NCBI GenBank assembly: GCA_021296345.1
Contig: JAGWAN010000021.1
Location: 1 to 35,473 of the forward strand
Reading direction: 5' to 3'
Length of the DNA stretch: 35,473 bases
Source: Acidimicrobiia bacterium
GTDB lineage: Bacteria; Actinomycetota; Acidimicrobiia; Spongiisociales; Spongiisociaceae
In this document: positions 2,567 through 18,695 of the stretch, piece by piece
How positions within the stretch are numbered: position 1 is the stretch's first letter
Layout of the letters: the number at the start of each line of letters is the position of its first letter
The notes under the pieces: generated by a model
What the model saw: only the letters and a program-made list of their open reading frames with translations
Told to the model about the DNA's origin: nothing
Databases searched by the model: none
Position numbers and translations under genes: made by a program

Positions 2567-3613
2567 ATGAAAGAGACAGGCAAGATCATCACGGTCAACG
2601 GTCCCATCGAGCCTCACCAACTCGGCGTGACCATGATGCACGAGCATCTGCTGTTCACATGCCTCATGTGGTTCTTGGAAGGGACACATCGGGGCTTGGG
2701 GTCCGACTCCTATGTACCGGTGACCCCCCACAACGCCGCGCTGCTCCGGGAGTTCCCCTACCGCAGCCGGGACAACCTGATCAACACCGACTGGCGGCTC
2801 AGCGCGCAGGAGATCAGGCGGTTCAAGATGGCGTTGGGTCGCAGCGTTGTGGACTCCTCGAATCTCGGTCTCGGCAGGGATGTGTGGGGTCTCCGCAAGA
2901 TCGCCGACGATGTCGGGATCAACATCATCTCGGGCACCGGGTACTACGTAGACCATGCCCATCCGTGGTACGTGGACTCGATGACCGCCGAGGAGTTGGC
3001 CGAGGGAATGATCGGTGACATCACCACCGGGGCCGACGGGACCGACATCCGCTGCGGGATCATCGGGGAGATCGGTACCTCCGACCCCGTCACGCGCAAC
3101 GAGTGGAAGGTACTGGAGGCGGCTGCCGTCACCCACCACGCCACCGGTGCGGCCATCCAGATCCACGCACTCCACGAGCAGCGCCTGATGCCCTCCATTC
3201 TCAAGTTCCTGATCGAGGACCACGGCGTGCATCCCAGCCGGGTCATCGCCGGCCACCTGGATCTCTGTACCGACGACCGACCCTATCTGGAGGAGGTCGC
3301 CGGTTACGACACCTTCCTCGAACTGGACGACTGGGGCCATCCCTGCCCCACCGACGGGGTCTACGTATCCGACGAGGACCGGATGTCCACCGTGGAGTGG
3401 ATGGTTGAGGACGGCTTGGGCGACAAACTGCTGTTCGCCCACGACATCGGCCTAAAGGCTCGCCTGTCCAGCTTCGGCGGACCCGGCTGGGACCACATCA
3501 TGAACGTGATCCTCCCGTCGCTGAAGGACCGCGGCATGTCCGTCGACCCCCTGTACGGATTCGTGATCGACAACCCTGCCCGGGTTCTCCCGCTAGCCAT
3601 GAAAGTCGGATGA
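2567..3613 (+). CDS. Phosphotriesterase-family metal-dependent hydrolase
   Basis: 348 residues with an amidohydrolase-superfamily TIM-barrel layout. Metal ligands expected for the family are visible: H-E-H at 25-27, Glu168 in G-E-I-G (the place of the carboxylated Lys in true phosphotriesterases), His200, His230 in A-G-H-L-D and Asp293 in A-H-D-I. Glu at the bridging site is typical of the PHP/lactonase-like branch, so a lactone, ester or cyclic amide is a likelier substrate than a phosphotriester. The ATG at 2567 has a GGAG site. It opens the run of same-strand genes leading into the BMC shell genes, and may perform the first hydrolysis of the pathway that feeds it. Substrate unknown. Confidence 0.87.
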   Translation: MKETGKIITVNGPIEPHQLGVTMMHEHLLFTCLMWFLEGTHRGLGSDSYVPVTPHNAALLREFPYRSRDNLINTDWRLSAQEIRRFKMALGRSVVDSSNLGLGRDVWGLRKIADDVGINIISGTGYYVDHAHPWYVDSMTAEELAEGMIGDITTGADGTDIRCGIIGEIGTSDPVTRNEWKVLEAAAVTHHATGAAIQIHALHEQRLMPSILKFLIEDHGVHPSRVIAGHLDLCTDDRPYLEEVAGYDTFLELDDWGHPCPTDGVYVSDEDRMSTVEWMVEDGLGDKLLFAHDIGLKARLSSFGGPGWDHIMNVILPSLKDRGMSVDPLYGFVIDNPARVLPLAMKVG

Positions 3614-3678
3614 GGCTTCGAGCGGGACTGGGCCTGGGTGGCAGGGCAGCGACGGCAGCCTATAGGATGTGCTGACTC

Positions 3679-4146
3679 ATGGACTACAGGGTTGCGAACA
3701 CGATCGAAGTGCTGAATCGCGCCACCAACGCCATCTGGTACGAGATGCCGGAGGAGGTCAGGAGGCTCACGACCCGGCGGGGGACCAAGGGGTACGGATG
3801 GCCGATGATCATCTGTGCCGAGGAGAACACCAGGGCCTTCGCTGACGACATGGCCGTGCTGCGCAATGCCGGCCGGGATCAATCGCTCGATCTGGAAACG
3901 CTCAAGCAGGTGGTGCGGATGTTCTGCGATGCGCAGCTAGGCATCCTCCACAACTGGTACGGGCTCGACGACAGCGTCGCGCTGGTGCGGAATTCGCTCG
4001 ACGCGCTGGACCACATGGAGACACGCGACGAGTACCTGGCCTACACCCACGAGTTGAGCGTCTACCTAGGCCGCCTCCATTGGTGGGCCGACACTCTGGT
4101 CCCGTGGGATGACATCAGCACCAAGTACGAGGAAATGACCGAGTAA
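3679..4146 (+). CDS. Hypothetical protein in the BMC operon
   Basis: 155 residues, soluble, apparently mostly helical, acidic, with many aromatic residues (W-Y near 20, H-N-W-Y near 95, H-W-W near 135). No signal peptide, membrane segment or nucleotide-binding motif is visible and I do not recognise the family. It lies 65 bases after the phosphotriesterase-like gene and 21 bases before the Gfo/Idh/MocA gene on the same strand, so it is probably co-transcribed. Coding bias matches its neighbours. It could be a small enzyme, a subunit of one of the neighbouring enzymes, or a binding protein. Confidence 0.72.
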   Translation: MDYRVANTIEVLNRATNAIWYEMPEEVRRLTTRRGTKGYGWPMIICAEENTRAFADDMAVLRNAGRDQSLDLETLKQVVRMFCDAQLGILHNWYGLDDSVALVRNSLDALDHMETRDEYLAYTHELSVYLGRLHWWADTLVPWDDISTKYEEMTE

Positions 4147-4167
4147 GCGGGTATTGAGGAGGAGCCG

Positions 4168-5226
4168 GTGGCCGAACGCGACGGTAACTACAGGGTCGGA
4201 TGCGTGGGGGCGGGTTTCGCCGCCTCGGTCTATCACCTGCCTGTCCAGCAACGTGTCGAGGGAGTGGAGACGGTGGCGATCGCCGACCTCGACGTCGACT
4301 TGGCCCGGCAAAGAGCGGACGAGTACGGCATCCCCGAGGTCTACGGGCCCTTCGAGGAAATGATCGAGCAAGCCGACCTGGACATCGTCTCGGTCTGCGT
4401 GCCGCCCTTCCTCCACCTGGCAGTCACCAAGGCGGCCGCCGCGGCCGGCGTGCATGTCATCTGCGAGAAGCCGATGGCCGCCTCGCCGGAGGAGGTAGCG
4501 GAGCTGGTCCAGGTGGTGGAGGACAGCGGGATCAAGTTCATGATCGCCGAGAACTTCTGGTGGTACCCCGACCTGGTCGATGCCAAGCAGCGGATTGACG
4601 CCGGGCTGATCGGCGACCTCTTCCACGTGCGGGTCGAGGAGTTCATCAACGACATCGATCCCACCTACCGGCGCGACCAGGAACGTTTCCTCATGTACGA
4701 GCAAGACGTCCACTACATCGACGTGATCCGGCATCTGGTCGACGCCGACGTGGTGAGGGTGCACGCCATGACTCGCCAGATCGCCACCCAGCAGCTGGCC
4801 GGCGAGAACTTCGCGATGATCACGATGGAGTTCGACAACGGGGTTATCGCCCGCATCGACGAGTGCTGGGTGTCGGCCCGCGGCGACCAGTACGTGATGC
4901 GCATGCGTATAGACGGCACCCTCGGCTCGATCTTCATCAACCAGCCCGACCACCCTTACAAGCTTTACACCGACAAGCCGGGCCTCGAGGGCTGGCACTA
5001 TCCCGCCACGGACACCAAGCCCCCGGGCGGGCACACGGTCGGGTACTCGGCGCCCTGGCCGGCCGACGAGCTCCGGGAAGGCACCGTGGGGTGTTATGTG
5101 GCCTTCCTCGACTACCTGGACAACGGCATCCCTCCTGTCACCGTGGCGTCTGACAACGCCCAGACGATGGAAGTGGTGTTCGCCGCCTATGAGTCGGCCG
5201 AGACACAGCAAGTCATCCACCTGTGA
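4168..5226 (+). CDS. Gfo/Idh/MocA-family NAD(P)-dependent oxidoreductase
   Basis: 352 residues. The N-terminal Rossmann fold has G-A-G-F-A-A at 14-19, an acidic end of beta-2 (A-D-L-D, 39-42) for the cofactor ribose, and the family's E-K-P motif at 100-102, whose Lys acts in catalysis. The C-terminal half has the mixed-sheet substrate domain, with D-V-H-Y-I-D-V-I-R-H near 175-185. The GTG start at 4168 is set by GAGGAGGAG just upstream. The family usually oxidises a hydroxyl on polyols, sugars or related compounds. In this operon it could make the carbonyl compound that the aldehyde dehydrogenase uses. It has no N-terminal EutQ-like tag, so it is probably cytosolic. Confidence 0.9.
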   Translation: MAERDGNYRVGCVGAGFAASVYHLPVQQRVEGVETVAIADLDVDLARQRADEYGIPEVYGPFEEMIEQADLDIVSVCVPPFLHLAVTKAAAAAGVHVICEKPMAASPEEVAELVQVVEDSGIKFMIAENFWWYPDLVDAKQRIDAGLIGDLFHVRVEEFINDIDPTYRRDQERFLMYEQDVHYIDVIRHLVDADVVRVHAMTRQIATQQLAGENFAMITMEFDNGVIARIDECWVSARGDQYVMRMRIDGTLGSIFINQPDHPYKLYTDKPGLEGWHYPATDTKPPGGHTVGYSAPWPADELREGTVGCYVAFLDYLDNGIPPVTVASDNAQTMEVVFAAYESAETQQVIHL

Positions 5227-5282
5227 CCGCTCCGCGAGGTAACTCCGCACCGGACCGGCCGGGCTAGAACGGGCCGGGCCGG

Positions 5283-6098
5283 ATGCCTACGACTCTGCGG
5301 GACGGGCTCCTCGATTTCTTCCGCTCGTGCGAGTGGGCGGACGCCCAGGCTCTACTGGACGATCAGGAGGTGAGTTTCTTCGAGGCGAAGGTGGACACCG
5401 TCGTACACCCGCTGTCGTTGGAGTTCCTGTTCGTCGAGTACCTGGACCGGCTCGGTCGCGGGGTGCGCAACGTGGGCCATGCGTTCGTGGGCGAGTGGGG
5501 GTGGATCAAGATCTACCCGGAGGTCCGGCCGGTGCTCAACGTGGTCTGGCGCTACGACGCGTCGTCGGTCATCGCCGCCCACCCCGACGAATTCCTGGAC
5601 GTGTGGACGGACGGTGGGGAGCACAGCTACCTGGAGGAAGTAAGCCCGAGACGGGTCACCGAGGCGGACCGGAATGGCCTGCTCTCCTACCTGGCGTCCG
5701 ACCACTGGGGGCAGGTACTCGGCTGGTTCGCCGATCACGAGACCGAGCACTTCCACACCTATCTCCACACCGATCTGCATCCCCACGATCTGGCGCCCTT
5801 CCTGGTCGAAAGCCTGGCCGAACGGGGGTTCCGGCTCGGCGTTCCCCCCTTCTTCCTCGCCCGGCCCGACCTCGGACTCATGTGGATCGGGTTGGCGCCC
5901 GACGGAATGACCTCCCAGGAGGTGGCCTGCATCCACACGCCCGGCGCGCTAATCGAACCCAAGAAGCTCACCGACGAGGACCGGGAATACGGGGGCGATC
6001 CCTGGACCGTGACCGACTTCCGCCAGCGGGTAGCCCGGGACCCGTACCAGGTGCTGACGTTGTCCGAGGCGAGAGGGATAGTCGATGAGTTGGTCTGA
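5283..6098 (+). CDS. Hypothetical protein with a His/Glu-rich segment, BMC operon
   Basis: 271 residues, soluble, with no family I recognise. The striking part is residues 151-169: His152, Glu153, Glu155, His156, His158, His162, His166 and His168 within 17 positions, which could bind a metal, though a chance composition cannot be excluded. Further His lie at 42, 66 and 100. It starts at ATG 5283 and ends 12 bases before the aldehyde dehydrogenase, so it is almost certainly translated from the same message. It is one of two unassigned proteins next to the shell genes and a candidate for the enzyme that makes the aldehyde, but that is inference. Confidence 0.72.
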   Translation: MPTTLRDGLLDFFRSCEWADAQALLDDQEVSFFEAKVDTVVHPLSLEFLFVEYLDRLGRGVRNVGHAFVGEWGWIKIYPEVRPVLNVVWRYDASSVIAAHPDEFLDVWTDGGEHSYLEEVSPRRVTEADRNGLLSYLASDHWGQVLGWFADHETEHFHTYLHTDLHPHDLAPFLVESLAERGFRLGVPPFFLARPDLGLMWIGLAPDGMTSQEVACIHTPGALIEPKKLTDEDREYGGDPWTVTDFRQRVARDPYQVLTLSEARGIVDELV

Positions 6099-6110
6099 GG
6101 GGGTGGCGCC

Positions 6111-7904
6111 GTGAGGCGGTTCGTGACCAGCGAGGACATCCGGGAACTGGCCGAGGTCGGCGAGTATGAGTTGCTGATGCGCGAGGGAACGGTCCTGACC
6201 GACGCGGCCCTCGACGAGGCGTACCGATTGGGCGTCCGACTGCTGGAGGGTTCCCGCCTAGCTGCTCCGCGGCCCCCGGCGGCGGATGGGGATCGCTCCG
6301 GCCGGCTACCCCCGGTTCCGCAGTCACTTTCTGTCCGGTCGCCGGCCCTCCCCGTAACAGAAGCCGCGCCGGTACCGCCCCGGGTAACCGCCGATGCCCG
6401 GCCTCGCTTCGAGGGGCTTCCGGATCCTGCCCGGATGCACCCGAGGCTCTTGATCGACGGGGAGTTCCGGGACGCAACCGGAGGGTCCACCAACCGTTCC
6501 GTCGATCCGGCCACCAACGAGACCATCGTGGAAGTGGCGTCCGCTGCGGCCGACGACGTCGATCTGGCGGTCCGGTCGGCCCGGCGAGCCTTCCGCCGGT
6601 GGCGAGTCATGGATCCCGCGGAGCGAGCAGATCTGTTGTTGAAGGTGGCCGAGCGGATCGAGCAGGAGCACGAGTTCCTGGCCAAGGTGGAGAGCCAGGA
6701 CGTGGGGCGGCCCATCAGGGAGACCACCCTGATCGACCTTCCGGCATCCTGGGATCCCTTCCGGTTCTTCCAGGGGCTGGTACGAGCCATTGACGGACGG
6801 GTCCTGGCGCTCCCGCAGGACTCCCTCGACTACGTGCGCAAGGAGCCGATGGGGGTGGTGGGGATGATCATCCCCTGGAACTTCCCTCTCCATATCGCAT
6901 GCCGTAAGGCGGCCGCGGCGCTGGCGGCCGGCAACACCGTGGTGCTGAAGCCTCCGGAACTGGCGCCGCTGTCGTGCCTGGAACTCGGCCGGATCTGTGT
7001 GGAGGCCGGTCTACCGCCAGGCGTGTTCAACGTGGTGCCGGGCGCCGGGGAGGTGGCCGGCGCCGCCCTGGTCGAGCACGGGGGTGTGGACAAGATCGCC
7101 TTCACCGGTTCCACCGTCACCGGCCGATCGGTCATGCGGGGCGCCGCCGGAACCATCAAACGGGTATCCCTGGAACTCGGAGGCAAGTCCCCCTCAATCG
7201 TTTTCGCCGATGCCGACCTGGACCGAGCGGTGAGCGGCGCCCTGTTCGGTATCTACCTGGCCCAGGGACAGGTGTGCTCGGCCGGTTCGCGGATACTCGT
7301 GGAACGGCCCGTCTACGACGAGTTCGTGGAACGCTTCGCGGCCAGGGCGGCATCCATCCGGATCGGGCTGCCGTGGCGGTGGGGGACACAGTTGGGCCCG
7401 CTGGTGAACGAGCGGCAGATGGAGCGGGTCTATGAGTACGTGGACATCGGTCGGGCCGAGGGAGCGACCGTCATAGGGAGCGGCACCCCGCCCGATGATC
7501 CCTCCCTCGCCGGGGGCAACTTCGTCAGACCGACCTGCTTCGTTAACGTCGAGCCCGGGTTCAGGATCGCGCAGGAGGAGATATTCGGTCCGGTGGCGGT
7601 GGTGATGCCGTTCAGCGGCGAGGAGGAGGCGGTCCGGTTGGCCAACGACGTACGCTACGGATTAGCCGCCGGGATCTGGACCACCGATGTTGGCAAGGCG
7701 CATAGAGTGGCGCGGGACTTGGAAGCGGGCTCGATCTGGGTCAACCACTTCGGCGTGTATCCGAGCGAGGCGCCCTTCGGCGGCTACAAGGAGAGCGGCA
7801 CGGGCCACGATTTGGGTCTGGAGTCGCTCCACGAGTATATGGAGACCAAGAACGTGCACGTCAATATCGGGCGCGGGTTCAACGATTGGTACGAAGACAA
7901 CTGA
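6111..7904 (+). CDS. Aldehyde dehydrogenase with N-terminal EutQ-like (BMC-targeting) domain
   Basis: 597 residues, about 100 longer than typical aldehyde dehydrogenases. Residues 1-50 match the N-terminal domain of the DUF3830 protein at 9176 and resemble EutQ N-termini; a Pro/Ala-rich linker follows (about 51-100); the catalytic region fills about 105-597. Visible motifs: P-W-N-F (255-258), F-T-G-S (331-334) for NAD binding, general-base Glu355 in E-L-G-G-K, nucleophile Cys389 in G-Q-V-C-S, and Glu490 in E-I-F-G-P. With both Glu355 and Cys389 it looks like a hydrolytic, NAD(P)-dependent enzyme making a free acid, not a CoA-acylating PduP/EutE type. GTG start with a GAGGGGG site. It sits directly before the shell genes, so it is the likely core enzyme of the compartment. 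The aldehyde is unknown. Confidence 0.93.
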   Translation: MRRFVTSEDIRELAEVGEYELLMREGTVLTDAALDEAYRLGVRLLEGSRLAAPRPPAADGDRSGRLPPVPQSLSVRSPALPVTEAAPVPPRVTADARPRFEGLPDPARMHPRLLIDGEFRDATGGSTNRSVDPATNETIVEVASAAADDVDLAVRSARRAFRRWRVMDPAERADLLLKVAERIEQEHEFLAKVESQDVGRPIRETTLIDLPASWDPFRFFQGLVRAIDGRVLALPQDSLDYVRKEPMGVVGMIIPWNFPLHIACRKAAAALAAGNTVVLKPPELAPLSCLELGRICVEAGLPPGVFNVVPGAGEVAGAALVEHGGVDKIAFTGSTVTGRSVMRGAAGTIKRVSLELGGKSPSIVFADADLDRAVSGALFGIYLAQGQVCSAGSRILVERPVYDEFVERFAARAASIRIGLPWRWGTQLGPLVNERQMERVYEYVDIGRAEGATVIGSGTPPDDPSLAGGNFVRPTCFVNVEPGFRIAQEEIFGPVAVVMPFSGEEEAVRLANDVRYGLAAGIWTTDVGKAHRVARDLEAGSIWVNHFGVYPSEAPFGGYKESGTGHDLGLESLHEYMETKNVHVNIGRGFNDWYEDN

Positions 7905-7917
7905 GGAGGTTCGGATC

Positions 7918-8196
7918 ATGGAAGGTGCTCTAGGGTTGATCGAGACCCGCGGGCTGGTCGGCGCAATCGAAGCGACCGACGCGATGGCCAAGGCAGCTCG
8001 TGTCGAGATCGTCGGGCGCGACGTGATCGGAGGCGGGTACGTCACGGTCATGGTGCAGGGCGAGGTCGGTGCGGTGAAGTCGGCGGTGGATGTAGGCGCC
8101 TCCGCGGCCAAGAAGGTCGGGCAGCTCGTCGCAGCCCATTTGATTCCCAAGCCCCACGAGGACTTGGGAAAGGTGAGCGCTCTGCTCGACGGCTGA
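7918..8196 (+). CDS. BMC-H shell protein (hexamer, EutM/PduA-like)
   Basis: 92 residues forming one complete BMC domain, the standard size for hexamer-forming shell tiles of carboxysomes and metabolosomes. Typical stretches are G-L-I-E-T-R-G near the start, the A-D/T-x-M-x-K-A-A-x-V helix, a pore-loop sequence I-G-G-G-Y around 41-45, and A-H-L-I-P-K-P-H toward the end. The glycine-rich pore loop implies a small polar-lined pore. The ATG at 7918 has GAGGAGG upstream and lies 13 bases after the aldehyde dehydrogenase. It is the only single-domain BMC-H gene in the window, so it would make most of the shell facets. Confidence 0.97.
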   Translation: MEGALGLIETRGLVGAIEATDAMAKAARVEIVGRDVIGGGYVTVMVQGEVGAVKSAVDVGASAAKKVGQLVAAHLIPKPHEDLGKVSALLDG

Positions 8197-8267
8197 TCCC
8201 CGTGTCTGTCCATCCGAAAGGCGGGACAGCCGGGAATCGCAGGCGGAGCGAAAGCGAGGATACGTAG

Positions 8268-8534
8268 ATGTTGTTGTGCCGTGTTACGGGAAGCACCGTC
8301 GTGACGGTGCGGGCCGGCGGGATGGGAGGGGCCAAGCTGCTGGTGGTGCGGCCGGAGGGCGGCGGCCCCGCCTCTTCGTTCGTGGCGATGGACACCGTGG
8401 GCGCCGGGTCGGGAGACCTGGTGCTGGTCGCCCAGGGAACCGCGGCGAGAATTCCGGATGCCACCGCGTCGGCGCCGACCGACGCGACAATCGTCGGCAT
8501 CATCGATGAAGCAAGCCACGACCCGGGAGGATGA
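8268..8534 (+). CDS. BMC-P shell protein (pentamer vertex, EutN/CcmL family)
   Basis: 88 residues, the usual length for the family that caps the vertices of microcompartments. Features of the beta-barrel fold are visible: a start of the form M-L-L-C-R-V-T-G-S, a central V-A-M-D-T-V-G-A-G-S-G-D turn, V-L-V-A-Q-G-T-A-A-R, and the closing P-T-D-A-T-I-V-G-I-I-D. The start ATG at 8268 has a GAGG site. It is separated from BMC-H by 71 bases without a gene and its stop lies one base before the BMC-T start, so the latter two are translationally coupled. With BMC-H and BMC-T it completes the minimum set for a closed shell. Confidence 0.95.
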   Translation: MLLCRVTGSTVVTVRAGGMGGAKLLVVRPEGGGPASSFVAMDTVGAGSGDLVLVAQGTAARIPDATASAPTDATIVGIIDEASHDPGG

Positions 8535-8535
8535 G

Positions 8536-9171
8536 GTGACGAGTCCGGGGCAATCAGGTGGCGGGGGCGGCAACTCCCTGCGCGCCTACGTGTATGTCGA
8601 CAAGATGCAGCCGGTCTGGGCGGCCTATGTAGGAAGGGACGACCCGAACGGCCCGGGATTGGAAGGGATGTCACAGCTGTACGTGGAGGTGGCGCCCGCC
8701 ACCCTGGTGTTCTCGCTGGCCAACGCCGCGCTGAAGAACACAGAGAACTCCTCCTCGATGCTGGTAGCCGAGCGGAGGTACGGGACGCTCGAGCTCCATT
8801 CGGCCAACCCTGACACCGTCCGCCAGGCCGGAACGATCATCCTGGCGATGATCGGTAGCTCCTCGGCGCCGGGTATAGCACCCTCTCTGGTGACCACACG
8901 CGTCATCAACAACGTGACCGGGGCGGAGGCCGGGCTGGTGAACCGGATGGGCGTCCGCGACCGGCTCCGGGAAGGCGACGCCATGCTGGTCGTGGAGACC
9001 GAGCCGGCCGCGTATGTGGCGCTGGCGGCCAACGAGGTGGAGAAGCAAACCTCGCTCCGCATGGTCCTGGTGAGACTGCATGGCGCCAGCGGGCGGCTTA
9101 TCCTCGCGGGGAGCGAAGCGGAGGTGGAGATCGGGCACCGCGTTGCGCTCGAGGCTCTTGGAGAAGGATGA
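8536..9171 (+). CDS. BMC-T shell protein (tandem BMC domains, trimer)
   Basis: 211 residues from GTG 8536, chosen because GGGAGG lies five bases upstream and the previous gene stops at 8534; the open frame extends further upstream but only through the BMC-P gene. Two BMC-like halves are visible, about 15-105 and 120-205. Recognisable parts are Y-V-D-K-M-Q-P-V-W-A-A-Y, E-V-A-P-A near 50, Y-G-T-L-E-L-H-S near 83, and E-P-A-A-Y-V-A-L-A-A-N-E-V-E-K in the second half. From memory these resemble trimeric shell proteins of the Rhodococcus/Mycobacterium-type and related loci. Such trimers often carry a larger, gated pore suited to cofactors. It overlaps nothing and is followed after four bases by the DUF3830 gene. 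Confidence 0.92.
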   Translation: MTSPGQSGGGGGNSLRAYVYVDKMQPVWAAYVGRDDPNGPGLEGMSQLYVEVAPATLVFSLANAALKNTENSSSMLVAERRYGTLELHSANPDTVRQAGTIILAMIGSSSAPGIAPSLVTTRVINNVTGAEAGLVNRMGVRDRLREGDAMLVVETEPAAYVALAANEVEKQTSLRMVLVRLHGASGRLILAGSEAEVEIGHRVALEALGEG

Positions 9172-9175
9172 TCCG

Positions 9176-9715
9176 ATGCGCCGGATACTGACCACCGATG
9201 ACATCAGGGCCGTCGCCCGCCGGGGCAAGACCGAGCTGGTGGTGGAACCGCCCACCGTGATCACCGCTGCGGCCCGGGAGGAAGCCGGCCTGGCCGGGCT
9301 CCGCATCATCGAAGGACCCGGAGACCGCGACGCGGACATAGTGATCAAGGTGGCCGGCGAGGAGATCCGGGCCACGCTCCTCCTCGACGAAGCACCGGTG
9401 ACCGCTTCTGCCATCCGCGACCTGCTCCCCCTTTCCGGCACCGTCAACCATGCTCGCCTGGCCGGCGATGAGCTCATGTTCCCGATCCGGACCTACATGG
9501 GTCCCGAGAACCAGTCGAAGGCCCAGCAGGCCGGCAACATCGCCTACTGGCCCGACCGCATGATCATCGCCATGTTCTACGGCGACACCGGAGGGGTGGG
9601 TCTCACCAACATCTTCGCCCGGGTGGCAGCCGACGACATGGACGCCTTCCGCCGGGCCGGCGACCACGTTTGGAAGAATCAGGGAGTCGAACTCTGCATC
9701 GAACGGGCCGGCTAG
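9176..9715 (+). CDS. DUF3830 cyclophilin-like protein with N-terminal EutQ-like (BMC-targeting) domain
   Basis: 179 residues. Residues 1-49 repeat the N-terminal domain of the aldehyde dehydrogenase at 6111. Residues about 55-179 look like DUF3830, a cyclophilin-like beta-barrel family: L-D-E-A-P-V-T near 68, V-N-H-A-R-L-A-G-D-E near 92, G-P-E-N-Q near 109, A-G-N-I-A-Y-W-P-D and Y-G-D-T-G-G. Members I know of occur beside hydantoinase- or amidase-like genes, but their activity is not settled. ATG 9176 has GGAGAAGGA upstream and follows the BMC-T stop by four bases; it closes the operon. The shared domain implies that it is packed inside the shell, possibly as an enzyme acting on the same substrate. 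Confidence 0.88.
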   Translation: MRRILTTDDIRAVARRGKTELVVEPPTVITAAAREEAGLAGLRIIEGPGDRDADIVIKVAGEEIRATLLLDEAPVTASAIRDLLPLSGTVNHARLAGDELMFPIRTYMGPENQSKAQQAGNIAYWPDRMIIAMFYGDTGGVGLTNIFARVAADDMDAFRRAGDHVWKNQGVELCIERAG

Positions 9716-9946
9716 ACCACAAGGAAAACAGCTTGCGAGGGCTGCATGGTTTAAAGGGTTAACGCAGACCTCCTGAATCAGCGCAAACCTAGGGTCGCGT
9801 ATCGATCCAACTTGAAATCATCGTAAGGGCTAAGCCAGTGTTTGACCGGCGGTCCGGCCGGCTTCCTCAATCAGACCGGCAAACCAGTTGCGCCTGCACC
9901 CCCCCCGAGGCGATAATCGATCAAGCGACCCGGAGGAGGGGTGCCC
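9716..9946 (+). promoter_or_regulatory. Intergenic region between the BMC operon and the polyamine-type ABC operon
   Basis: About 230 bases without a gene. It is less G+C-rich in its first half (TTTAAAGGGTTAACG near 9750) and contains a G/C-rich stretch near 9848-9862 and a run of C at 9899-9906. It should hold the end of the BMC transcript and the promoter of the ABC operon. I cannot place -35/-10 boxes with confidence. The end carries GGAGGAGG (9932-9939), which fixes the start of the next gene. Confidence 0.35.
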
Positions 9947-11179
9947 ATGTCTGATGGCCGCGATCCGATCAGTAGGAGGGATTTCGTCAAGCTAGCGGGC
10001 AAGGGGGCGCTCGTCGCAGGTGCCATGCCGGCCGCTCTGGCCGCTTGCGGCGAGGATGCTCCACCCGAGACGGTGGTCGTTACCGAGACCGTCATCGAGG
10101 AGAAAATCGTCACCGAGACGGAGACCATCATCGAGACCGTCATAGAGGAGGCCCCCACCACCACGCTGAGTCCGCGGGACGCGGGGTTGGCGGCGGAGAA
10201 CGGCGCCGACCTCCTCATCTACGCCCCACCCGGACGGGAGGTTCCGACCCAGTGGCCCGGCTACCTGGGCAGGTTCCCCGAGCCCCAGTTCGCGGCCACC
10301 GCCGGAAGCTTCGCTTCCCTGGGCGAGTTGCAGCTGGGCGCCATCGAGCCAGACATCTGGAACCCGTGCTTCGCGGTGTTCGACACGGCGGTGAGCGAGG
10401 GTCTGGTGCAGCCGTGGGATACGGATCTGATCCCCAACTTCAAGGATCTGAACCCCAACCTGACGGCCGCTACCTCCCGTGACGGCAAGCAGTATGCCAT
10501 TCCGTTGCTGTACGGGCTGGCGATCCCGATCTACCGGGCCGACCTGTACACGCCGAAGGAGAACTCCTACTCCATCCTCTTCGATGAGGAACTGGCGGGG
10601 AAGGTCACCTGGACGGACTCGGCCGAGTGGTTCGTCGTAGCCGGCAAGCTACCCGAGAACAACGTGGCCAACCCCCTCGATCCGACCGACGAGGAACTGG
10701 ACCGTCTGGTCGAGTTCCTGAAGGCGAAGATCAAGGTCGTGCCCGCTGCTCTGTACAGCGATCTGGCCACCAACCAGACCGATCTGGCCACGGGCAACAT
10801 CGTGGCGTCCTACGTCGCGCCCACCCAGTGGATCGAGCTGACCAAGCAGGGCGTGGACATCGCGTTCGTCACCCCGGACGAGGGCTTCATCGGGTTCTCG
10901 TGCGGTTACTTCCTGATGGCCGGCGCAGATCAGTACTACCACGCCCACGAGTGGGTCAACGCGGCGGTCAGCGTCGAGGCGGCCCTGACCATCTCGAACA
11001 AGTTCAACTTCGGGAACTCCAACCTGGAGGCGACTGCCGTCGACAACCCGTTGCTGGTGGACGTGATGGGATTGGGTAATCCCACCGCCCTGGACGGGGT
11101 TTCGCTGCTCGACAAGATGCAGAACATCGACAGGCTGAACGACGCGTGGATCGAGGTCAAGGCGTCGGCCGGAGTCTGA
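9947..11179 (+). CDS. Spermidine/putrescine-type ABC transporter substrate-binding lipoprotein (PotD-like)
   Basis: 410 residues, extracytoplasmic binding subunit of a polyamine/opine/2-aminoethylphosphonate-type importer. The N-terminus has a Tat motif (S-R-R-D-F-V-K, Arg10-Arg11), a hydrophobic run, and a lipobox L-A-A-C with Cys34. Residues about 40-72 are a Val/Glu/Thr-rich repetitive tether. The rest has the extended bilobed fold of the family, with W-N-P-C-F, Y-A-I-P-L-L-Y-G and W-T-D-S as recognisable places. ATG 9947 is preferred over GTG 9941 because GGAGGAGG lies seven bases away from the former and one base from the latter. First gene of a five-gene operon. The substrate is not certain. 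Confidence 0.88.
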   Translation: MSDGRDPISRRDFVKLAGKGALVAGAMPAALAACGEDAPPETVVVTETVIEEKIVTETETIIETVIEEAPTTTLSPRDAGLAAENGADLLIYAPPGREVPTQWPGYLGRFPEPQFAATAGSFASLGELQLGAIEPDIWNPCFAVFDTAVSEGLVQPWDTDLIPNFKDLNPNLTAATSRDGKQYAIPLLYGLAIPIYRADLYTPKENSYSILFDEELAGKVTWTDSAEWFVVAGKLPENNVANPLDPTDEELDRLVEFLKAKIKVVPAALYSDLATNQTDLATGNIVASYVAPTQWIELTKQGVDIAFVTPDEGFIGFSCGYFLMAGADQYYHAHEWVNAAVSVEAALTISNKFNFGNSNLEATAVDNPLLVDVMGLGNPTALDGVSLLDKMQNIDRLNDAWIEVKASAGV

Positions 11180-11349
11180 TCCCAAATCGAATCAAGTGGT
11201 CGTCCCAGGAGGGTGCCGGGTTGCACGGTGGCCGGTGAGAACCTTTCGCTGTCCGGCATCCTCGCGGGTCGGCGACCAGTGAGACTTGCGGGCACCCACC
11301 ATTGAGCACCGTGGCATCGGACAACGACACTTCTAAGAAGGAGGGTCGC

Positions 11350-12225
11350 GTGACCAGCCTGGCGCGCCGTCGCCATCGGGTGACGCGCTCGCTGCTGGCG
11401 TTGCCGCTCGGCTGGCTGCTGCTCTTCTTCGTGATCCCGGTGTCGCTGGTCGTCGCTTACAGCGTCGGGATTCTGGCCACCTTCACCAAGGAGGAGGGGG
11501 TCAGCCTGGAGAGCTGGCGGCTCTTCCTGACCGGCGAGAACGTCTACATGCTGCTGTTCATCAAGTCGTTCAGGATGGCGCTGATCGTGGCGGTGGTAGT
11601 GGTGATCCTCGCCTACCCGATCGCCTACTTCCTCGCGATGATCGCCGACAAGTATAAGTACTCGTTGCTACTCCTGATGATCGCTCCGTTCATGACCAAC
11701 TTCTTCATGCGGGTGATGGCCTGGAAGGTGCTGCTGGGCAGGCAGGGGGTGATCAACTCCTTCCTGTTCTGGACGGGTCTGCGGGATCCTTCCAACCCTA
11801 TCGAGGGCCTCGCCTTCGGGGAGATCCCGGTGATGATCGTGCTGGGATACGTGTGGATCCCGTTCGTCATGCTGCCGATGTTCGCGGCGATGATCAGCAT
11901 GGACCGCCGGCTGCTGGAGGCGGCTACCGACCTGGGGGCGAGCCGGTGGCGGTCGTTCTGGAAGGTGACCTTCCCGCTCAGCCTCCCAGGAGTGGTGGCC
12001 TCATTCTTCTTCGTCTTCATCCCGACCATCGGGGAGTTCGTGGTGCCCAAGCTGGTGGGTGGGACCAGGGGTTACATGTTCGGGAGCGCCATCGACGACC
12101 TGTTCGGTATGGGTCTCGATTGGCGTACCGGATCGGTGCTCTCCCTGTGGCTGGTGATGGCGGTGTTCATCCTGGCGCTGCTGTTCATGCGCCTGGTGCG
12201 TTTCGGAAGGCTGGCCGAGTCATGA
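11350..12225 (+). CDS. Polyamine-type ABC transporter permease 1 (PotB-like)
   Basis: 291 residues, about six membrane helices, with the ATPase-coupling loop E-A-A-T-D-L-G-A-S-R-W-R-S-F-W-K-V-T-F-P-L around 185-210. I chose GTG 11350 because AAGGAGGG lies just upstream; the in-frame TTG at 11302 has no ribosome site and adds an unconserved polar tail. It follows the binding-protein gene by about 170 bases without a gene, which may allow more binding protein than permease to be made. Its stop overlaps the next permease by four bases (ATGA), so the two chains are coupled and would form a heterodimer. Confidence 0.93.
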   Translation: MTSLARRRHRVTRSLLALPLGWLLLFFVIPVSLVVAYSVGILATFTKEEGVSLESWRLFLTGENVYMLLFIKSFRMALIVAVVVVILAYPIAYFLAMIADKYKYSLLLLMIAPFMTNFFMRVMAWKVLLGRQGVINSFLFWTGLRDPSNPIEGLAFGEIPVMIVLGYVWIPFVMLPMFAAMISMDRRLLEAATDLGASRWRSFWKVTFPLSLPGVVASFFFVFIPTIGEFVVPKLVGGTRGYMFGSAIDDLFGMGLDWRTGSVLSLWLVMAVFILALLFMRLVRFGRLAES

Positions 12226-13103
12226 ACGACATAGCCACTTCCAAGCTGGCCAAATGGGTCCTGATCGGGATATTCATCGTTGAGATCATCTTCCTCTACG
12301 CCCCCGTCAGCCTGCTCTACATCTTCTCGTTCAACCAAGGCAGCGTTGTCGGGTTCCCCTTCTCCGGGTTCACGCTTGACTGGTATGAGACGGCCTTCAC
12401 CAACCGCGGCCTCCTACTCTCGATGCGTACCAGCGCGACGATCGCCCTGATGTCGAGCACCGCCTCCATCGTGGTGGGCCTACTGATGGCCATTCCCCTG
12501 GCCCGGCGCAAGTTCAAGGCCAAGACGCCGATCATGGCCCTCGTGCTAAGTCCGCTCGTGGTGCCCCACCTGGTGTTCGGCGTCGCACTCCTGATCACAT
12601 TCCGGAGTGTCTCCCTCGTCACGAACGATGCCATCGAGTTCCCCTTGTCGTTGGGGGCAGTGGCTATAGGGCATGTTGTCGTCCTGATGCCGCTGATCGT
12701 CCTGATCCTGATACCCCGTCTCCAACGTATAGACGCCCACCTCGAGGAGGCGGCCCAGGACTTGGGGGCCAGCGGTTGGCGGACCTTCCGAACCATCATT
12801 CTTCCCCTCATCGCGCCGGCCCTAGCGGCTGCCTACGTGATCTCCTTCATCATCTCGTTCAACGAGTACGCGGTGGCCGTGTTCGTGAGCGGTCCCACCA
12901 CCACCTTCCCGATCTACGTCCTCAACGAGTTGCAGGTCCCCGTGCGAGTCCCGCAGATAATCGCAATCTCGGTGATCGTCGTGACTATCTCGCTGCTGGT
13001 AGTGGTCGGCGCCGAATTGATGCGCCGCGTATTCGAGCGCCGGTACCGGGTGCTCAGCCAGACCGCGGGGTTGCTGGGCGTGGCCGACGCGGATACGGAG
13101 TGA
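12222..13103 (+). CDS. Polyamine-type ABC transporter permease 2 (PotC-like)
   Basis: 293 residues with about six membrane helices. The first is I-G-I-F-I-V-E-I-I-F-L-Y-A-P-V-S-L-L-Y, and the PotC-style F-S-F-N follows. The coupling loop reads E-E-A-A-Q-D-L-G-A-S-G-W-R-T-F around 180-195. The ATG at 12222 overlaps the preceding stop. It is followed by 31 bases and then the CocE/NonD hydrolase gene, so the transporter genes continue into a catabolic gene before the ATPase gene. Confidence 0.93.
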   Translation: MNDIATSKLAKWVLIGIFIVEIIFLYAPVSLLYIFSFNQGSVVGFPFSGFTLDWYETAFTNRGLLLSMRTSATIALMSSTASIVVGLLMAIPLARRKFKAKTPIMALVLSPLVVPHLVFGVALLITFRSVSLVTNDAIEFPLSLGAVAIGHVVVLMPLIVLILIPRLQRIDAHLEEAAQDLGASGWRTFRTIILPLIAPALAAAYVISFIISFNEYAVAVFVSGPTTTFPIYVLNELQVPVRVPQIIAISVIVVTISLLVVVGAELMRRVFERRYRVLSQTAGLLGVADADTE

Positions 13104-13134
13104 GGATGAGAGCCGGGCGAGGGATGGAGATGTG

Positions 13135-14886
13135 ATGTCTGACCAGGCTTCGTTGCGCCAGCCCTACTCGCGGCGGGTTCACTCCTGGGCGGGTGTGGAT
13201 CTCGAACGCAACGTCGAGATGCAGACCAGGGACGGCGTGACGTTGAGGAGCGACATCTACCGTCCCCTCGGCGCCGGACCCTGGCCGGTGTTGATCCACC
13301 GGACCCCCTACGGCAAGGACTTCGTGCACGACGGCCACTACCTGCATCCGGGCTGGTACGTGCGGAATGGCTTCGTGGTCGTGGTGCAGGATGTGCGGGG
13401 CCGGTTCGGGTCGGACGGCGAGTTCGTGCCCTACCTGAACGAGTTGGCCGACGGCTACGACACGGTGGAGTGGGCGGCCGGGCTGGAGGGTTCCAACGGG
13501 CGGGTCGGTATGTATGGGGCAAGCTATCCCGGAATGGTCCAGTACCTGGCGGCCGTCGAGGGTCCCCCGAGCCTGGGCGCGATCTCTCCGACGGTGGCCG
13601 CCGCCGACCTCTACAGCCACTGGACCTACGAGGGAGGAGCCCTGCGCCTGTTCGTTCCCCACTGGACGGCCGCTCTGCTCATGGAGATCGGCGTGCGTCG
13701 GGGCCAACCCGATCTGACGGCGCGCGGCAAGGCCATCCGGTCGGTGCCCTCTCAGGCCGGCGCCTGGCTGGGTTCCGCCGCGCCGGTTGACCTGGATCCG
13801 CTGGAGCATGCCGAGTTCTACAGGGAGTGGCTTGAGCACCCCACCAACGACTCTTTCTGGAAGGAACGGAGCGCCCTCCACCGCATGGATTCGGTCCGGT
13901 GCGCCGTGCTGCACATCGGCGCATGGTTCGATACCTTCCTGGAGGGCGCCCTGGTCGCCTACCGGGAACTGGCGGCCCTGCCGGACGGTCCGGAGCAATG
14001 GTTGATCCTCGGTCCGTGGGGACACCTCCCGGGCGGGGAGTGCATCGGAGACCTGATCCTGGGGCCGCAAGCCAGAGGGACGGTCAATCTCGACCAGGTT
14101 CAGGTCGACTTCTTCCATCGGCATCTCTCCGGAGTGGCCCCGGAGACCGGCGAGAGCCGGGTCCGCTACTACGTGCTATTCGAGAACCGCTGGCACGACA
14201 TCCCGTCGTGGCCGCCCCCAGGGACGGAGACCACTCTCTACCTGCACTCGGACGGAACGGCCAACACGGTTGGTGGTGACGGCCGTCTCGACGAGTCGCC
14301 TCCCGAGGAGCCGGAACCGGCCGACCTGTACCACTTCGTTCCCCGCATCCCGGTGGCAGCGGCGGGTGGGCATACTTGCTGCGACGAGAGCGCCATGCCC
14401 GCCGGTCCGCGCAGCCAGCACTTCCTGGAGCGGTTGCCCGAGATCCTGGTCTACTCGACGGAACCCTTCACAGAGGAGGTCACCCTGGCCGGACCGGTCA
14501 CGGCCCGGCTGTGGACAGCTACGGAGGCAAGCTCCGCCGACTACGTCACCCGCCTATGCCTGGTCCACAACGGCACGTCGCTCAATATCAGCGACGGGAT
14601 CAGGCGGATGACGGCCGAGGACCTCGCCGAGGCTCGAGACGAGGACGGTGTGGCGGAGGTCGAGATACAGATGCAGTCCACCGCCGCGCTGCTCCGCCCC
14701 GGTGATCAGTTGCGCCTCCACGTCGCCAGCGGCGCCTTCCCGGCCTTCGATATCAACCCCCAGACCGGGGCTTTGCCCGCGATGACCCCTATATGGGACG
14801 GGATAGCGGCCATGCACGGGATCTGCCACGAACCGGGCCGCGAATCATCGGTAACCTTCACCCTGCACCAAGGAGATGGATCATGA
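13135..14886 (+). CDS. CocE/NonD-family alpha/beta serine hydrolase
   Basis: 583 residues, typical length. The N-terminal alpha/beta hydrolase domain holds nucleophile Ser130 in Y-G-A-S-Y-P-G, Asp266 in G-A-W-F-D and His297 in G-P-W-G-H, forming the catalytic triad of cocaine-esterase, glutaryl-acylase and X-Pro dipeptidase relatives. The C-terminal part (about 410-583) is the beta-jelly-roll domain of the same family. ATG 13135 has GGAGA nearby; GTG 13132 is also possible. No signal peptide, so it acts in the cytoplasm. It lies between permease and ATPase genes of an importer, and its end overlaps the ATPase start, so it probably cleaves an ester or amide bond in the imported solute or a derivative. 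Specificity is not readable from the sequence. Confidence 0.9.
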   Translation: MSDQASLRQPYSRRVHSWAGVDLERNVEMQTRDGVTLRSDIYRPLGAGPWPVLIHRTPYGKDFVHDGHYLHPGWYVRNGFVVVVQDVRGRFGSDGEFVPYLNELADGYDTVEWAAGLEGSNGRVGMYGASYPGMVQYLAAVEGPPSLGAISPTVAAADLYSHWTYEGGALRLFVPHWTAALLMEIGVRRGQPDLTARGKAIRSVPSQAGAWLGSAAPVDLDPLEHAEFYREWLEHPTNDSFWKERSALHRMDSVRCAVLHIGAWFDTFLEGALVAYRELAALPDGPEQWLILGPWGHLPGGECIGDLILGPQARGTVNLDQVQVDFFHRHLSGVAPETGESRVRYYVLFENRWHDIPSWPPPGTETTLYLHSDGTANTVGGDGRLDESPPEEPEPADLYHFVPRIPVAAAGGHTCCDESAMPAGPRSQHFLERLPEILVYSTEPFTEEVTLAGPVTARLWTATEASSADYVTRLCLVHNGTSLNISDGIRRMTAEDLAEARDEDGVAEVEIQMQSTAALLRPGDQLRLHVASGAFPAFDINPQTGALPAMTPIWDGIAAMHGICHEPGRESSVTFTLHQGDGS

Positions 14887-15986
14887 CGGCTAGCTCCTCC
14901 CCGATGTCCGAGGTCGGGATCCACCTAGAGGGCATCACCAAGACCTTCGGCGAGGTGGTGGCGGTTGACGACGTCGACGTCGTCATCCGTGAAGGGGAGT
15001 TCTTCTCGCTTCTGGGACCGAGCGGGTGCGGCAAGACGACCAGCCTGCGGATGATCGCCGGCTTCGAAGTACCGGACGCCGGCCGGGTCCTCCTGCGCGA
15101 CAAGGACGTGAGCGGGGACCTACCCAGCAGGCGCAACGTCAACATGGTCTTCCAGCACTACGCCCTGTTCCCGCACATGAACGTGGAGGACAACGTGATG
15201 TTCGGACTGCGGGTCTCCGGCGTGAGGAAGAAGGAGCGCGTGCAGCGGGTGGCCGAGATACTCGAGATCGTCCGGCTGCCCGGGTTCCAGAAACGCAAGC
15301 CCTTCCAGCTGTCGGGGGGCCAGCAGCAGCGGGTGGCCCTCGCCCGGGCTCTGGTCAACCAACCATCGGCCCTGTTGCTCGACGAGCCGCTCGGCGCTTT
15401 GGACGTGAAGCTGCGGCGCGAGATGCAGCTGGAGTTGAAGGCCATCCAGCACGAATTGGGCACCACCTTCGTGTACGTAACCCACGACCAGGAGGAAGCC
15501 CTCACCATGTCTGACCGCATCGCGGTCATGAACCTGGGCCGGGTGGAGCAGATCGGTACTCCACGCGAGATCTACGAGCACCCCCACTCTTCCTTCGTGG
15601 CCGGGTTCATCGGATCCCTCAACGCTATGGACTTGCTGATCCAGCAGAGGCATGACGGTACCGGCGTCATGGCGGTGGGTGAGGGCCGGGTGATTGCTCG
15701 TGTGGATGCGAATGTGACGGCCGGTGCCACGCTGCGGGCGGCGGTCCGCCCCGAGCGCATCGCCCTGGGTCCGGCGAGCGCGCCTGTCCATCCCGACGGG
15801 TCCGTGGTCGTAGGAGCGGTGGAAGAGGTCATCTACCTGGGGGCAGTGAGCCTTTTCCACGTCGAAGTACCTGGCCTAGGCCAGATCGTCAGCCAGCGCA
15901 TGTCCCACGAGGACGAGTCCGCATTCCGGACCGGCGACCAGGTCTCGGCCTCCTGGGAGCTCGCCCACACGCTCGTCCTCGAGTAG
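14883..15986 (+). CDS. Polyamine-type ABC transporter ATP-binding protein (PotA-like)
   Basis: 367 residues. Walker A G-P-S-G-C-G-K-T at 45-52, signature L-S-G-G-Q around 143-147, Walker B L-L-L-D-E-P at 164-169 and the switch His in T-H-D-Q are all intact. The C-terminal region (about 245-367) is a TOBE-type regulatory/oligosaccharide-binding-fold domain as in PotA and FbpC. ATG 14883 overlaps the hydrolase stop (ATGA). It would energise the permeases at 11350 and 12222 and is the last gene of the operon. Confidence 0.95.
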   Translation: MTASSSPMSEVGIHLEGITKTFGEVVAVDDVDVVIREGEFFSLLGPSGCGKTTSLRMIAGFEVPDAGRVLLRDKDVSGDLPSRRNVNMVFQHYALFPHMNVEDNVMFGLRVSGVRKKERVQRVAEILEIVRLPGFQKRKPFQLSGGQQQRVALARALVNQPSALLLDEPLGALDVKLRREMQLELKAIQHELGTTFVYVTHDQEEALTMSDRIAVMNLGRVEQIGTPREIYEHPHSSFVAGFIGSLNAMDLLIQQRHDGTGVMAVGEGRVIARVDANVTAGATLRAAVRPERIALGPASAPVHPDGSVVVGAVEEVIYLGAVSLFHVEVPGLGQIVSQRMSHEDESAFRTGDQVSASWELAHTLVLE

Positions 15987-16043: not shown

Positions 16044-16339
16044 ATGGACGCGCCGGGCGTCAATCGGGTTCGGATCAACATCGACATGATCGACCGCGAC
16101 CTGGTCCGCTTGCTGGCACGCCGGCATCTAATGGTCATGCGAGTGGGCCGGATCAAGGCTCAGCGAGAGATGCCGTCCACATTCCCGAGCGGGAGGTGGA
16201 GTTGCTGGACATCGTCCGGGAGGAAGCGGAGAGGCACCGTCCGGATCCGGTCGAGGTCGAGAAACTCTTCGTGCTCATCCTGGAGCAGGCGCGAGAGACG
16301 CAGCACCGGGAACGCTCCGGACCCTGGTCCGTGGCCTGA
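16044..16339 (+). pseudogene. Chorismate mutase type II (AroQ-like), broken by a frameshift
   Basis: Two reading frames together give one AroQ-fold protein. The frame from ATG 16044 reads N-R-V-R-I-N-I-D-M-I-D-R-D-L-V-R-L-L-A-R-R, with the helix-1 pattern and the active-site style Arg/Lys (G-R-I-K-A-Q-R) before about 16170. The homology then continues in another frame as H-I-P-E-R-E-V-E-L-L-D-I-V, with the helix-2/3 region to the stop at 16339. One missing base (or two extra) near 16165-16175 explains the break. It follows the importer operon by about 57 bases. It is either a true pseudogene or an assembly/sequencing error; the rest of the sequence looks well preserved, so an error is possible. 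Confidence 0.7.
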
Positions 16340-16356
16340 GCCTTGCGGTACCGGCG

Positions 16357-16382
16357 CCCGAGGTGTGGTCGCCGACCTCGGG
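16357..16382. terminator. Stem-loop between convergent genes
   Basis: A perfect 8-bp inverted repeat, CCCGAGGT at 16357-16364 and ACCTCGGG at 16375-16382, with a 10-base loop. It sits exactly between the plus-strand chorismate mutase remnant and the minus-strand PLP enzyme stop, where a bidirectional terminator is expected. There is no clear U tract, so it may be a weak or factor-assisted terminator. Confidence 0.45.

Positions 16383-18695
<2,313 letters not shown>

Follow-up and report, generated by a model that had tools for sequence, protein, structure and literature searches.

Bacterial microcompartments of the metabolosome kind have been described with an aldehyde dehydrogenase (ALDH) that needs both coenzyme A (CoA) and NAD+. 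The one exception named in the papers considered here is the ARO type of Actinobacteria, whose non-CoA ALDH is described as distinct from those of every other microcompartment and lacks a detectable encapsulation peptide (PMC10470539; here and below, citations refer to the accessible parts of each paper). ARO, the 2-aminophenol/catechol type, combines two BMC-H and one BMC-P with ring-opening dioxygenases and has no BMC-T, while the SPU set is defined by DeoC (PF01791) and RpiB (PF02502) (PMC8217296). The operon considered here lies at positions 2567 to 9715 of a 35,473-nucleotide contig of an Acidimicrobiia bacterium (JAGWAN010000021.1, analysed at its full length and called the window), which is contig C78 of a 2.83 Mb genome (G000; 82 contigs, 94.95% complete). 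The operon may encode a catabolic metabolosome in which a pair of proteins, DUF3830 and Cucumopine_C, frees an aldehyde inside the shell, where a tagged, CoA-free ALDH removes it. The probability of this reading is roughly 40%.

The operon consists of nine genes, all on the + strand, separated by gaps of 65, 21, 56, 12, 13, 71, 1, and 4 bases (Table 1). All nine evolve at dN/dS ratios (nonsynonymous to synonymous substitution) of 0.04 to 0.26 in comparisons with the loci L021, L020, and L023. An earlier inspection of the DNA letters (the sequence-only reading) had proposed a compact run of same-strand genes with a full minimal shell of BMC-H, BMC-P, and BMC-T, and both proposals are borne out, the shell by PF00936, PF03319, and the CcmP model NF053796. 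BMC-T falls below the equivalog cut-off of that model (340 bits) and has no Pfam match at E 0.05. A PF00936 search of the genome, which misses BMC-T, returned one gene, and one BMC-T relative was found there as well. BMC-H and BMC-P occur together in the locus, which is the gene criterion for a bacterial microcompartment; that particles form is predicted from these genes. The family calls made earlier for the phosphotriesterase-family hydrolase (PTE), the MocA oxidoreductase, the ALDH, and the DUF3830 protein agree with the Pfam matches. A Pfam scan of the nine proteins detected no classical signature enzyme, no alcohol dehydrogenase, and no phosphotransacylase family, as had been claimed. The broader statement that a signature enzyme is missing holds for the well-known types only, given that the DUF3830 and Cucumopine_C proteins form a candidate for one. 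Similarly, one of the two genes left unassigned now belongs to Cucumopine_C; the other, 5283-6098, still has no family.

The gene sets of SPU, ARO, and the canonical metabolosome core do not fit the window, and all three were set aside as its type. Like ARO, the locus is actinobacterial and has a small shell and a putative non-CoA ALDH (PMC10470539); unlike ARO, whose ALDH has no detectable tag, it has one BMC-H, one BMC-P, one BMC-T, and a tagged ALDH. The ring-opening dioxygenases of ARO (pfam02900) have no match among the nine proteins by Pfam. In the same order of bacteria, locus L073 (genome G045) carries DeoC (PF01791), RpiB (PF02502), and an ALDH, and is thus of the SPU type (one locus checked by Pfam). 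It shares BMC-H, BMC-P, BMC-T, and ALDH with the window; however, its ALDH lacks the Glu discussed below, DeoC (pfam01791) and RpiB (pfam02502) are absent among the nine window proteins by Pfam, and BMC-T proteins outside the family are at most 40% identical to that of the window. The locus type is not described in the accessible parts of PMC8217296, PMC4207490, PMC9052549, and PMC10470539, a comparison that stops short of the 68 types of Supplementary Data 2. Full-text literature searches gave no paper joining microcompartments with cucumopine, DUF3830, or cyclophilin-like proteins, and the papers that contain both "microcompartment" and "Pictet-Spengler" concern, by title, engineering or heterologous synthesis (PMC7961827, PMC5882880, PMC10992092, PMC12943553, PMC4408053). 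The idea of a new kind of locus is supported against the descriptions compared, with an earlier naming as a MIC, MUF, or BUF type as its counterpart (weighed below).

The ALDH retains Glu355 (within LELGGK) as well as Cys389 (within GQVC), and both motifs are present in 7/7 relatives searched. Four microcompartment ALDHs were aligned with it, those of Rhodococcus pRB98, Methylibium RPME01, L073, and L082, and none has Glu at this position. In ALDH chemistry the catalytic Glu goes with a hydrolytic, CoA-independent enzyme. Since Glu355 is retained, the window ALDH is predicted to be of this kind and should yield a free acid rather than an acyl-CoA. By the same residue, it does not appear to be the CoA-acylating ALDH of the canonical core. 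The best NCBIfam matches are BADH/HpaE, below their cut-offs, and the enzyme is also close to semialdehyde dehydrogenases. PduL-type phosphotransacylase (PF06130) was not detected in the one genome itself (0/1, at 94.95% completeness); the same search was positive in 2/14 controls. Taken by itself, a shell that houses a hydrolytic ALDH is highly probable, and the enzyme would be the second CoA-free exception after ARO, here with a tag.

That tag is shared with a very different protein. The first 47 residues of the ALDH and the DUF3830 protein are identical at 22/47 positions without a gap (the first codon being translated as M in each), whereas the best of 10,000 shuffles gave 13. Each tag profile picks up the other protein in the window: the one built from the DUF3830 tags of seven loci gives the ALDH 36.9 bits, and the one built from seven ALDH tags gives the DUF3830 protein 37.8 bits. 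The remaining seven window proteins reach at most 5.5 bits with either profile, and MocA and the 5283-6098 protein at most 0.4 bits wherever the two profiles list them. Both tags match positions 1-49 of the EutQ model, the DUF3830 tag at 5.4e-6 (26.3 bits, cut-off 193) and the ALDH tag weakly at 0.084 (0.087 for the ALDH of L023); the scores lie far under the equivalog cut-off, which a fragment would be expected to do. In EutQ this N-terminal domain is fused to a cupin domain, whereas in the window it is fused to ALDH and DUF3830. Residues 1-99 of EutQ suffice to target GFP to Eut compartments, with the H1/H2 part interacting with the shell (PMC12487888), and EutQ-EutM binding appears to require the EutQ N-terminus (PMC4827028). 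Thus, a predicted encapsulation signal is present on two of the nine proteins, the ALDH and the DUF3830 protein. A tag-like N-terminal end is also seen on the malate dehydrogenase of another microcompartment locus, L082.

Several lines of evidence connect the DUF3830 protein with the Cucumopine_C protein. The latter scores 51.7 bits against PF18631 (cut-off 27), which places it in the cucumopine synthase/McbB family. It matches PDB entry 3x27 (named cucumopine synthase by the tool) at 2.3e-4, and a profile of the window protein and 6 relatives does so at 1.5e-4, with E 0.95 only for 9ns6. Entry 3x27 is, we assume, the structure of McbB. McbB converts tryptophan and oxaloacetaldehyde to beta-carbolines (PMC7024544). 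With plasmid homologs added, a DUF3830 profile matches 9ns6 ("Pictet-Spenglerase", 1.1e-9), 3x27 (1.1e-8), 9k0a, and 9uwa/b, and also cyclophilin-like proteins without a named role, such as 2nnz. The aligned cyclophilin-like domain is C-terminal in 9ns6 and 9k0a and N-terminal in 3x27; therefore, the order of the modules varies within the Pictet-Spenglerase family. Relatives of Cucumopine_C at 21-28% identity turned up by tblastn in 11 plasmid records, 6/11 of which were examined for neighbours. DUF3830 and Cucumopine_C genes adjoin in two S. medicae (pMl1) records, in Sodalis pHS1, and in two records of pRi1724 (presumably a mikimopine plasmid), making three kinds of plasmid with a neighbouring pair; in a Shinella record, the two are fused as one protein. 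Close to the pRi1724 and Sodalis pairs lie genes for an amine/amino-acid ABC transporter and for hydantoinase A/B, joined in Sodalis by hutH. When window orthologs were aligned with the plasmid proteins by hhalign, the two modules gave probabilities of 93.7% (E 1.9e-7) and 95.6% (E 1.2e-8), from low-diversity alignments. The window pair and the plasmid pairs would thus be two-gene forms of one scaffold, although no shell genes are annotated in the plasmid stretches examined and the other neighbours differ. Compared with cucumopine synthase and McbB, the window seems to encode the same cyclophilin-like and helical-bundle modules, but split between two distant genes, one of them bearing a microcompartment tag. 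Together, these similarities make it reasonably probable that the DUF3830 and Cucumopine_C proteins form one two-subunit enzyme.

A number of observations weigh against this assignment or against its proposed reaction. The two modules stand at opposite ends of the operon, and among 30 other DUF3830 loci of the phylum (30 of 44 matches examined), none has Cucumopine_C within 1.5 kb. A DUF3830 profile built from the window group only gives E 1.9 against 3x27 and scores 2nnz (1e-5), 3kop (2e-4), 9flp (a repeat protein, 5.4e-9), and 4rv1 (a designed one, 1.3e-5) higher; because 9flp and 4rv1 look unrelated, a low E-value from this profile cannot be taken as proof. In a 45-row tree the window clade has a long branch to itself and its placement next to other groups is unsure; the structural model of the DUF3830 protein (pLDDT 56) is too poor for a fold search. 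In addition, McbB, 9ns6, and the proteins of pRi1724, Sodalis, and S. medicae share the Glu of a YG..TE motif, for which the window protein and 6/6 relatives have Gly; their motif reads YGDTGGVG (YSDTGGVG in L019). By residue count (chain residue 118, with a 21-residue tag assumed), this Glu is probably McbB Glu97, whose role we partly assume and partly take from the accessible part of PMC9366743. The chemistry of the window enzyme may thus differ, and if the residue is Glu97, the same base could not be used. Breakdown as the direction of the reaction is suggested solely by gene neighbourhood, and around the S. medicae pair the stretch examined lacks both hydantoinase and hut genes. Given the Glu-to-Gly change, the weak window-only profile, the lone branch, and the 0/30 loci, it is from the scaffold, the tag, and the context that we infer the reaction.

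The proposed pathway would run as follows. A shell with a single protein each of the BMC-H, BMC-P, and BMC-T kinds would receive the ALDH and the DUF3830 protein by way of their EutQ-like tags, and the DUF3830 protein would carry in its untagged partner, Cucumopine_C. Together the two would make up an enzyme with the cucumopine-synthase/McbB scaffold and work in the breakdown direction, releasing an amine and a reactive aldehyde from an imported nitrogen-containing compound by retro-Pictet-Spengler or related C-N cleavage. The ALDH would then convert the aldehyde, NAD+, and water to the free acid, a product that makes CoA and a phosphotransacylase unnecessary. The PTE-family hydrolase would probably ready the substrate by cleaving an ester, lactone, or amide, and the MocA oxidoreductase may supply or recycle NAD. 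In its most specific version, this pathway would have as signature enzyme a split Pictet-Spenglerase/opine-synthase scaffold run in reverse, a first among microcompartments; it would cleave a cyclic amine within the shell, and the tagged, CoA-independent dehydrogenase would take over the aldehyde, so that the metabolosome would do without CoA chemistry. This version is unlikely.

The 5283-6098 protein has no Pfam or NCBIfam match. Its halves are homologous to each other (hhalign probability 98.3, E 2.3e-14), with a conserved T-x-x-H-P motif in each. AlphaFold, given 8 sequences, models it as two helix-helix-beta-helix-beta-beta-beta units (pLDDT 71, pTM 0.68; the other four models made reached pLDDT 50-59). 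Foldseek returns mostly VOC proteins, with TM-scores of 0.13-0.35 in the best 50 rows and 3 matches at E <= 0.001 among 1066 at E <= 10, so that a VOC-like fold is a weak lead. A paralog at 43-45% identity is present in 8/8 carrier genomes. In the genome of the window, it lies in a shell-free locus (L003 633-16804, G000:C24) at 44% identity, near a paralog of the PTE at 73%, and the same locus holds hydantoinase A/B, a second PTE, PhyH, RraA, PALP-type, and class III and class IV aminotransferase genes. Because the paralogs occur together where no shell is encoded, the PTE and the 5283-6098 protein may act jointly before or beside the compartment. A homolog at 25% on a Sinorhizobium meliloti plasmid has an ABC transporter and D-2-hydroxyacid- and shikimate-dehydrogenase-like open reading frames (ORFs) as neighbours (judged by eye, unannotated), from which no substrate follows. 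Plasmid searches with MocA gave nothing at E 1e-30, and those with ALDH and PTE gave broad families only. The best PDB match of the PTE is 9efa, "Phosphotriesterase-related protein" (2e-50). In PTER, an N-acetyltaurine hydrolase, Arg204 and Arg233 lie at the substrate (PMC11374699). The 9efa positions taken as these two residues, by a mapping inferred from number offsets, are His and Leu in the window PTE; on that mapping both arginines seem lost, and N-acetyltaurine was dropped as a substrate.

The main rival to the proposed pathway is a different source of the aldehyde. The metabolosome would still surround a non-acylating ALDH, with the aldehyde coming from MocA or from the 5283-6098 protein as a VOC-type oxygenase, an arrangement likened to the dioxygenase and ALDH of ARO; the DUF3830/Cucumopine_C pair would instead perform isomerisation, ring opening, or binding. 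This is a tentative but real possibility. The loss of the McbB-type Glu, the lack of a Cucumopine_C neighbour at 30/30 other DUF3830 loci, and the closeness of the ALDH to BADH/HpaE and semialdehyde dehydrogenases all agree with it, as do the VOC matches of the 5283-6098 protein, weak as they are, and the shell-free locus, where the PTE and 5283-6098 paralogs would have a chemistry of their own. The distribution of the tags speaks for the DUF3830/Cucumopine_C pair as the source, since of the nine proteins it is the ALDH and the DUF3830 protein that carry them, not MocA or the 5283-6098 protein.

Two further explanations concern the identity and the direction of the system. That the locus type has already been named, as MIC-, MUF-, or ARO-related, is improbable. 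Loci with an ALDH but an incomplete core are called MIC by the published naming rule (PMC4207490), and 68 types are described in the supplement of PMC8217296, outside this comparison; however, the shell and dioxygenases of ARO differ from the genes found here (PMC8217296), its ALDH is described as unlike that of every other microcompartment (PMC10470539), and the full-text search gave no co-mention of microcompartments with cucumopine, DUF3830, or cyclophilin-like proteins. Less probable still is a biosynthetic compartment in which the enzyme runs forward, condensing an amine and an aldehyde to an alkaloid or opine. The family members with assigned products considered here are indeed synthases (McbB, PMC7024544; cucumopine synthase by name), but an ALDH enclosed with such an enzyme would use up the aldehyde it needs, the operon is flanked by genes of an ABC transporter, and two of the three kinds of split pair sit in catabolic-looking clusters.

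Whatever its substrate, the locus has carriers in one family of Acidimicrobiia. By tblastn with the window genes, eight carriers were found (the window, L018, L019, L020, L021, L022, L023, and L029), the relatives including the metagenome-assembled genomes RHO1_bin_64, RHO1_bin_3, APA_bin_98, SB0661_bin_37, CO36387bin_10, and the OY282370 assembly. Their isolate names, as we take them, point to marine sponges. The block Cucumopine_C, MocA, 5283-6098, ALDH, BMC-H, BMC-P, BMC-T, DUF3830 has a single order in 8/8 carriers, so the shell genes and those upstream of them have been kept as a unit, a point on which the sequence-only reading had staked its claim. The PTE gene lies directly 5' of this block in 7/8 carriers and 5.7 kb away in L023. 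The Cucumopine_C gene is present in 8/15 genomes of the family, the window's own included, and the 5283-6098 protein in 8/59 relatives, again counting the window's own (family 8/15, other families of the order 0/44). Across the phylum, PF18631 matched 1/296 genomes and the 5283-6098 protein 1/396, in each case the genome of the window. The window BMC-T matches 81/345 genomes of the class, 7 of them at 80-100% identity, all in this family, and the other 74 at 40% or less; in tblastn of the loci, BMC-T is 79-96% identical in 7 relatives. Among 13 family genomes listed, the same 7 carry both an 80-100% BMC-T and Cucumopine_C, and the same 6 carry neither. In one of those 7 (G405), a stop lies within the aligned BMC-T stretch, and the alignment begins at residue 13. 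In L027 (G402:C9), the stretch between the operon and a second cluster has ORFs that resemble, by eye, sarcosine oxidase subunits and creatinase-type peptidases.

Table 1. Genes of the operon and the adjoining transporter region, in window coordinates
Feature	Position	Strand	Match
Phosphotriesterase-family (PTER-like) hydrolase, PTE	2567..3613	+	PF02126 1.8e-62, 212 bits
Cucumopine_C protein, helical-bundle module of cucumopine synthase/McbB (Pictet-Spenglerase) family, separate protein	3679..4146	+	PF18631 1.4e-13
Gfo/Idh/MocA NAD(P)-dependent oxidoreductase, EKP motif at residue 100, untagged	4168..5226	+	PF01408 3.9e-26, 92 bits
Orphan protein, two homologous halves, weak VOC-like fold match, untagged	5283..6098	+	outside Pfam/NCBIfam families
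Aldehyde dehydrogenase (ALDH), predicted non-acylating type, EutQ-like N-terminal tag residues 1-47	6111..7904	+	PF00171 5.9e-170, 566 bits
BMC-H shell protein	7918..8196	+	PF00936 1.9e-26, 92 bits
BMC-P shell vertex protein	8268..8534	+	PF03319 1.5e-22, 80 bits
BMC-T shell protein, CcmP-like	8536..9171	+	NF053796 3e-41, 141 bits
EutQ-like N-terminal tag (residues 1-48) fused to DUF3830 cyclophilin-like domain	9176..9715	+	PF12903 1.5e-11, 45 bits
Spermidine/putrescine-kind ABC transporter (four genes) and S15/CocE-type hydrolase	9941..15983	+	Pfam; transporter kind judged from sequences

The flanking transporter and S15/CocE-type hydrolase genes are accessory and not strictly conserved. They lie directly 3' of the operon in 5/8 carriers (window, L018, L020, L022, L029) and were not seen in the flank examined of L019, L021, and L023. 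On the 5' side, 5/8 carriers (window, L018, L021, L022, L029) have a divergent pair of SsuC-like permease genes ahead of the operon. Further along the window, a protein of the pyridoxal phosphate type with a D-serine-dehydratase domain is encoded at 16386-17762 (-), and its frame overlaps the last part of a short chorismate-mutase-like ORF that runs on the other strand at 16044-16439 (+). Elsewhere in the genome, three tandem DUF3830 genes (L117 8093-9500, G000:C81:28102-29508) have same-order counterparts in another family of the order (G177:C23), and amidohydrolase-like and PTE-like ORFs, judged by eye, stand near the tandem.

Other microcompartment loci of the order differ among themselves. 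By tblastn, several have BMC-T, BMC-H, and BMC-P with a distant ALDH. L082 (G057:C23) has octopine/nopaline-dehydrogenase-like and glutamine synthetase genes with its tagged malate dehydrogenase and Glu-less ALDH. L079 (G581:C9), whose BMC-H is the closest one outside the family in the tblastn search (64%), has genes for hydantoinase B and a methyltransferase next to those of the shell, and no ALDH at E 1e-5 within the 20 kb searched.

The EutQ-like tags on two unlike enzymes offer a testable, portable targeting module. If true, a second CoA-free case with a tagged hydrolytic-type ALDH would suggest that shells also serve CoA-free aldehyde chemistry, and the range of reactions known from compartments would grow by one class if their cargo included a scaffold of the Pictet-Spenglerase type. 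Should the relatives indeed come from marine sponges, as we assume, the operon would also give a handle on how symbionts use the nitrogenous compounds of their hosts.

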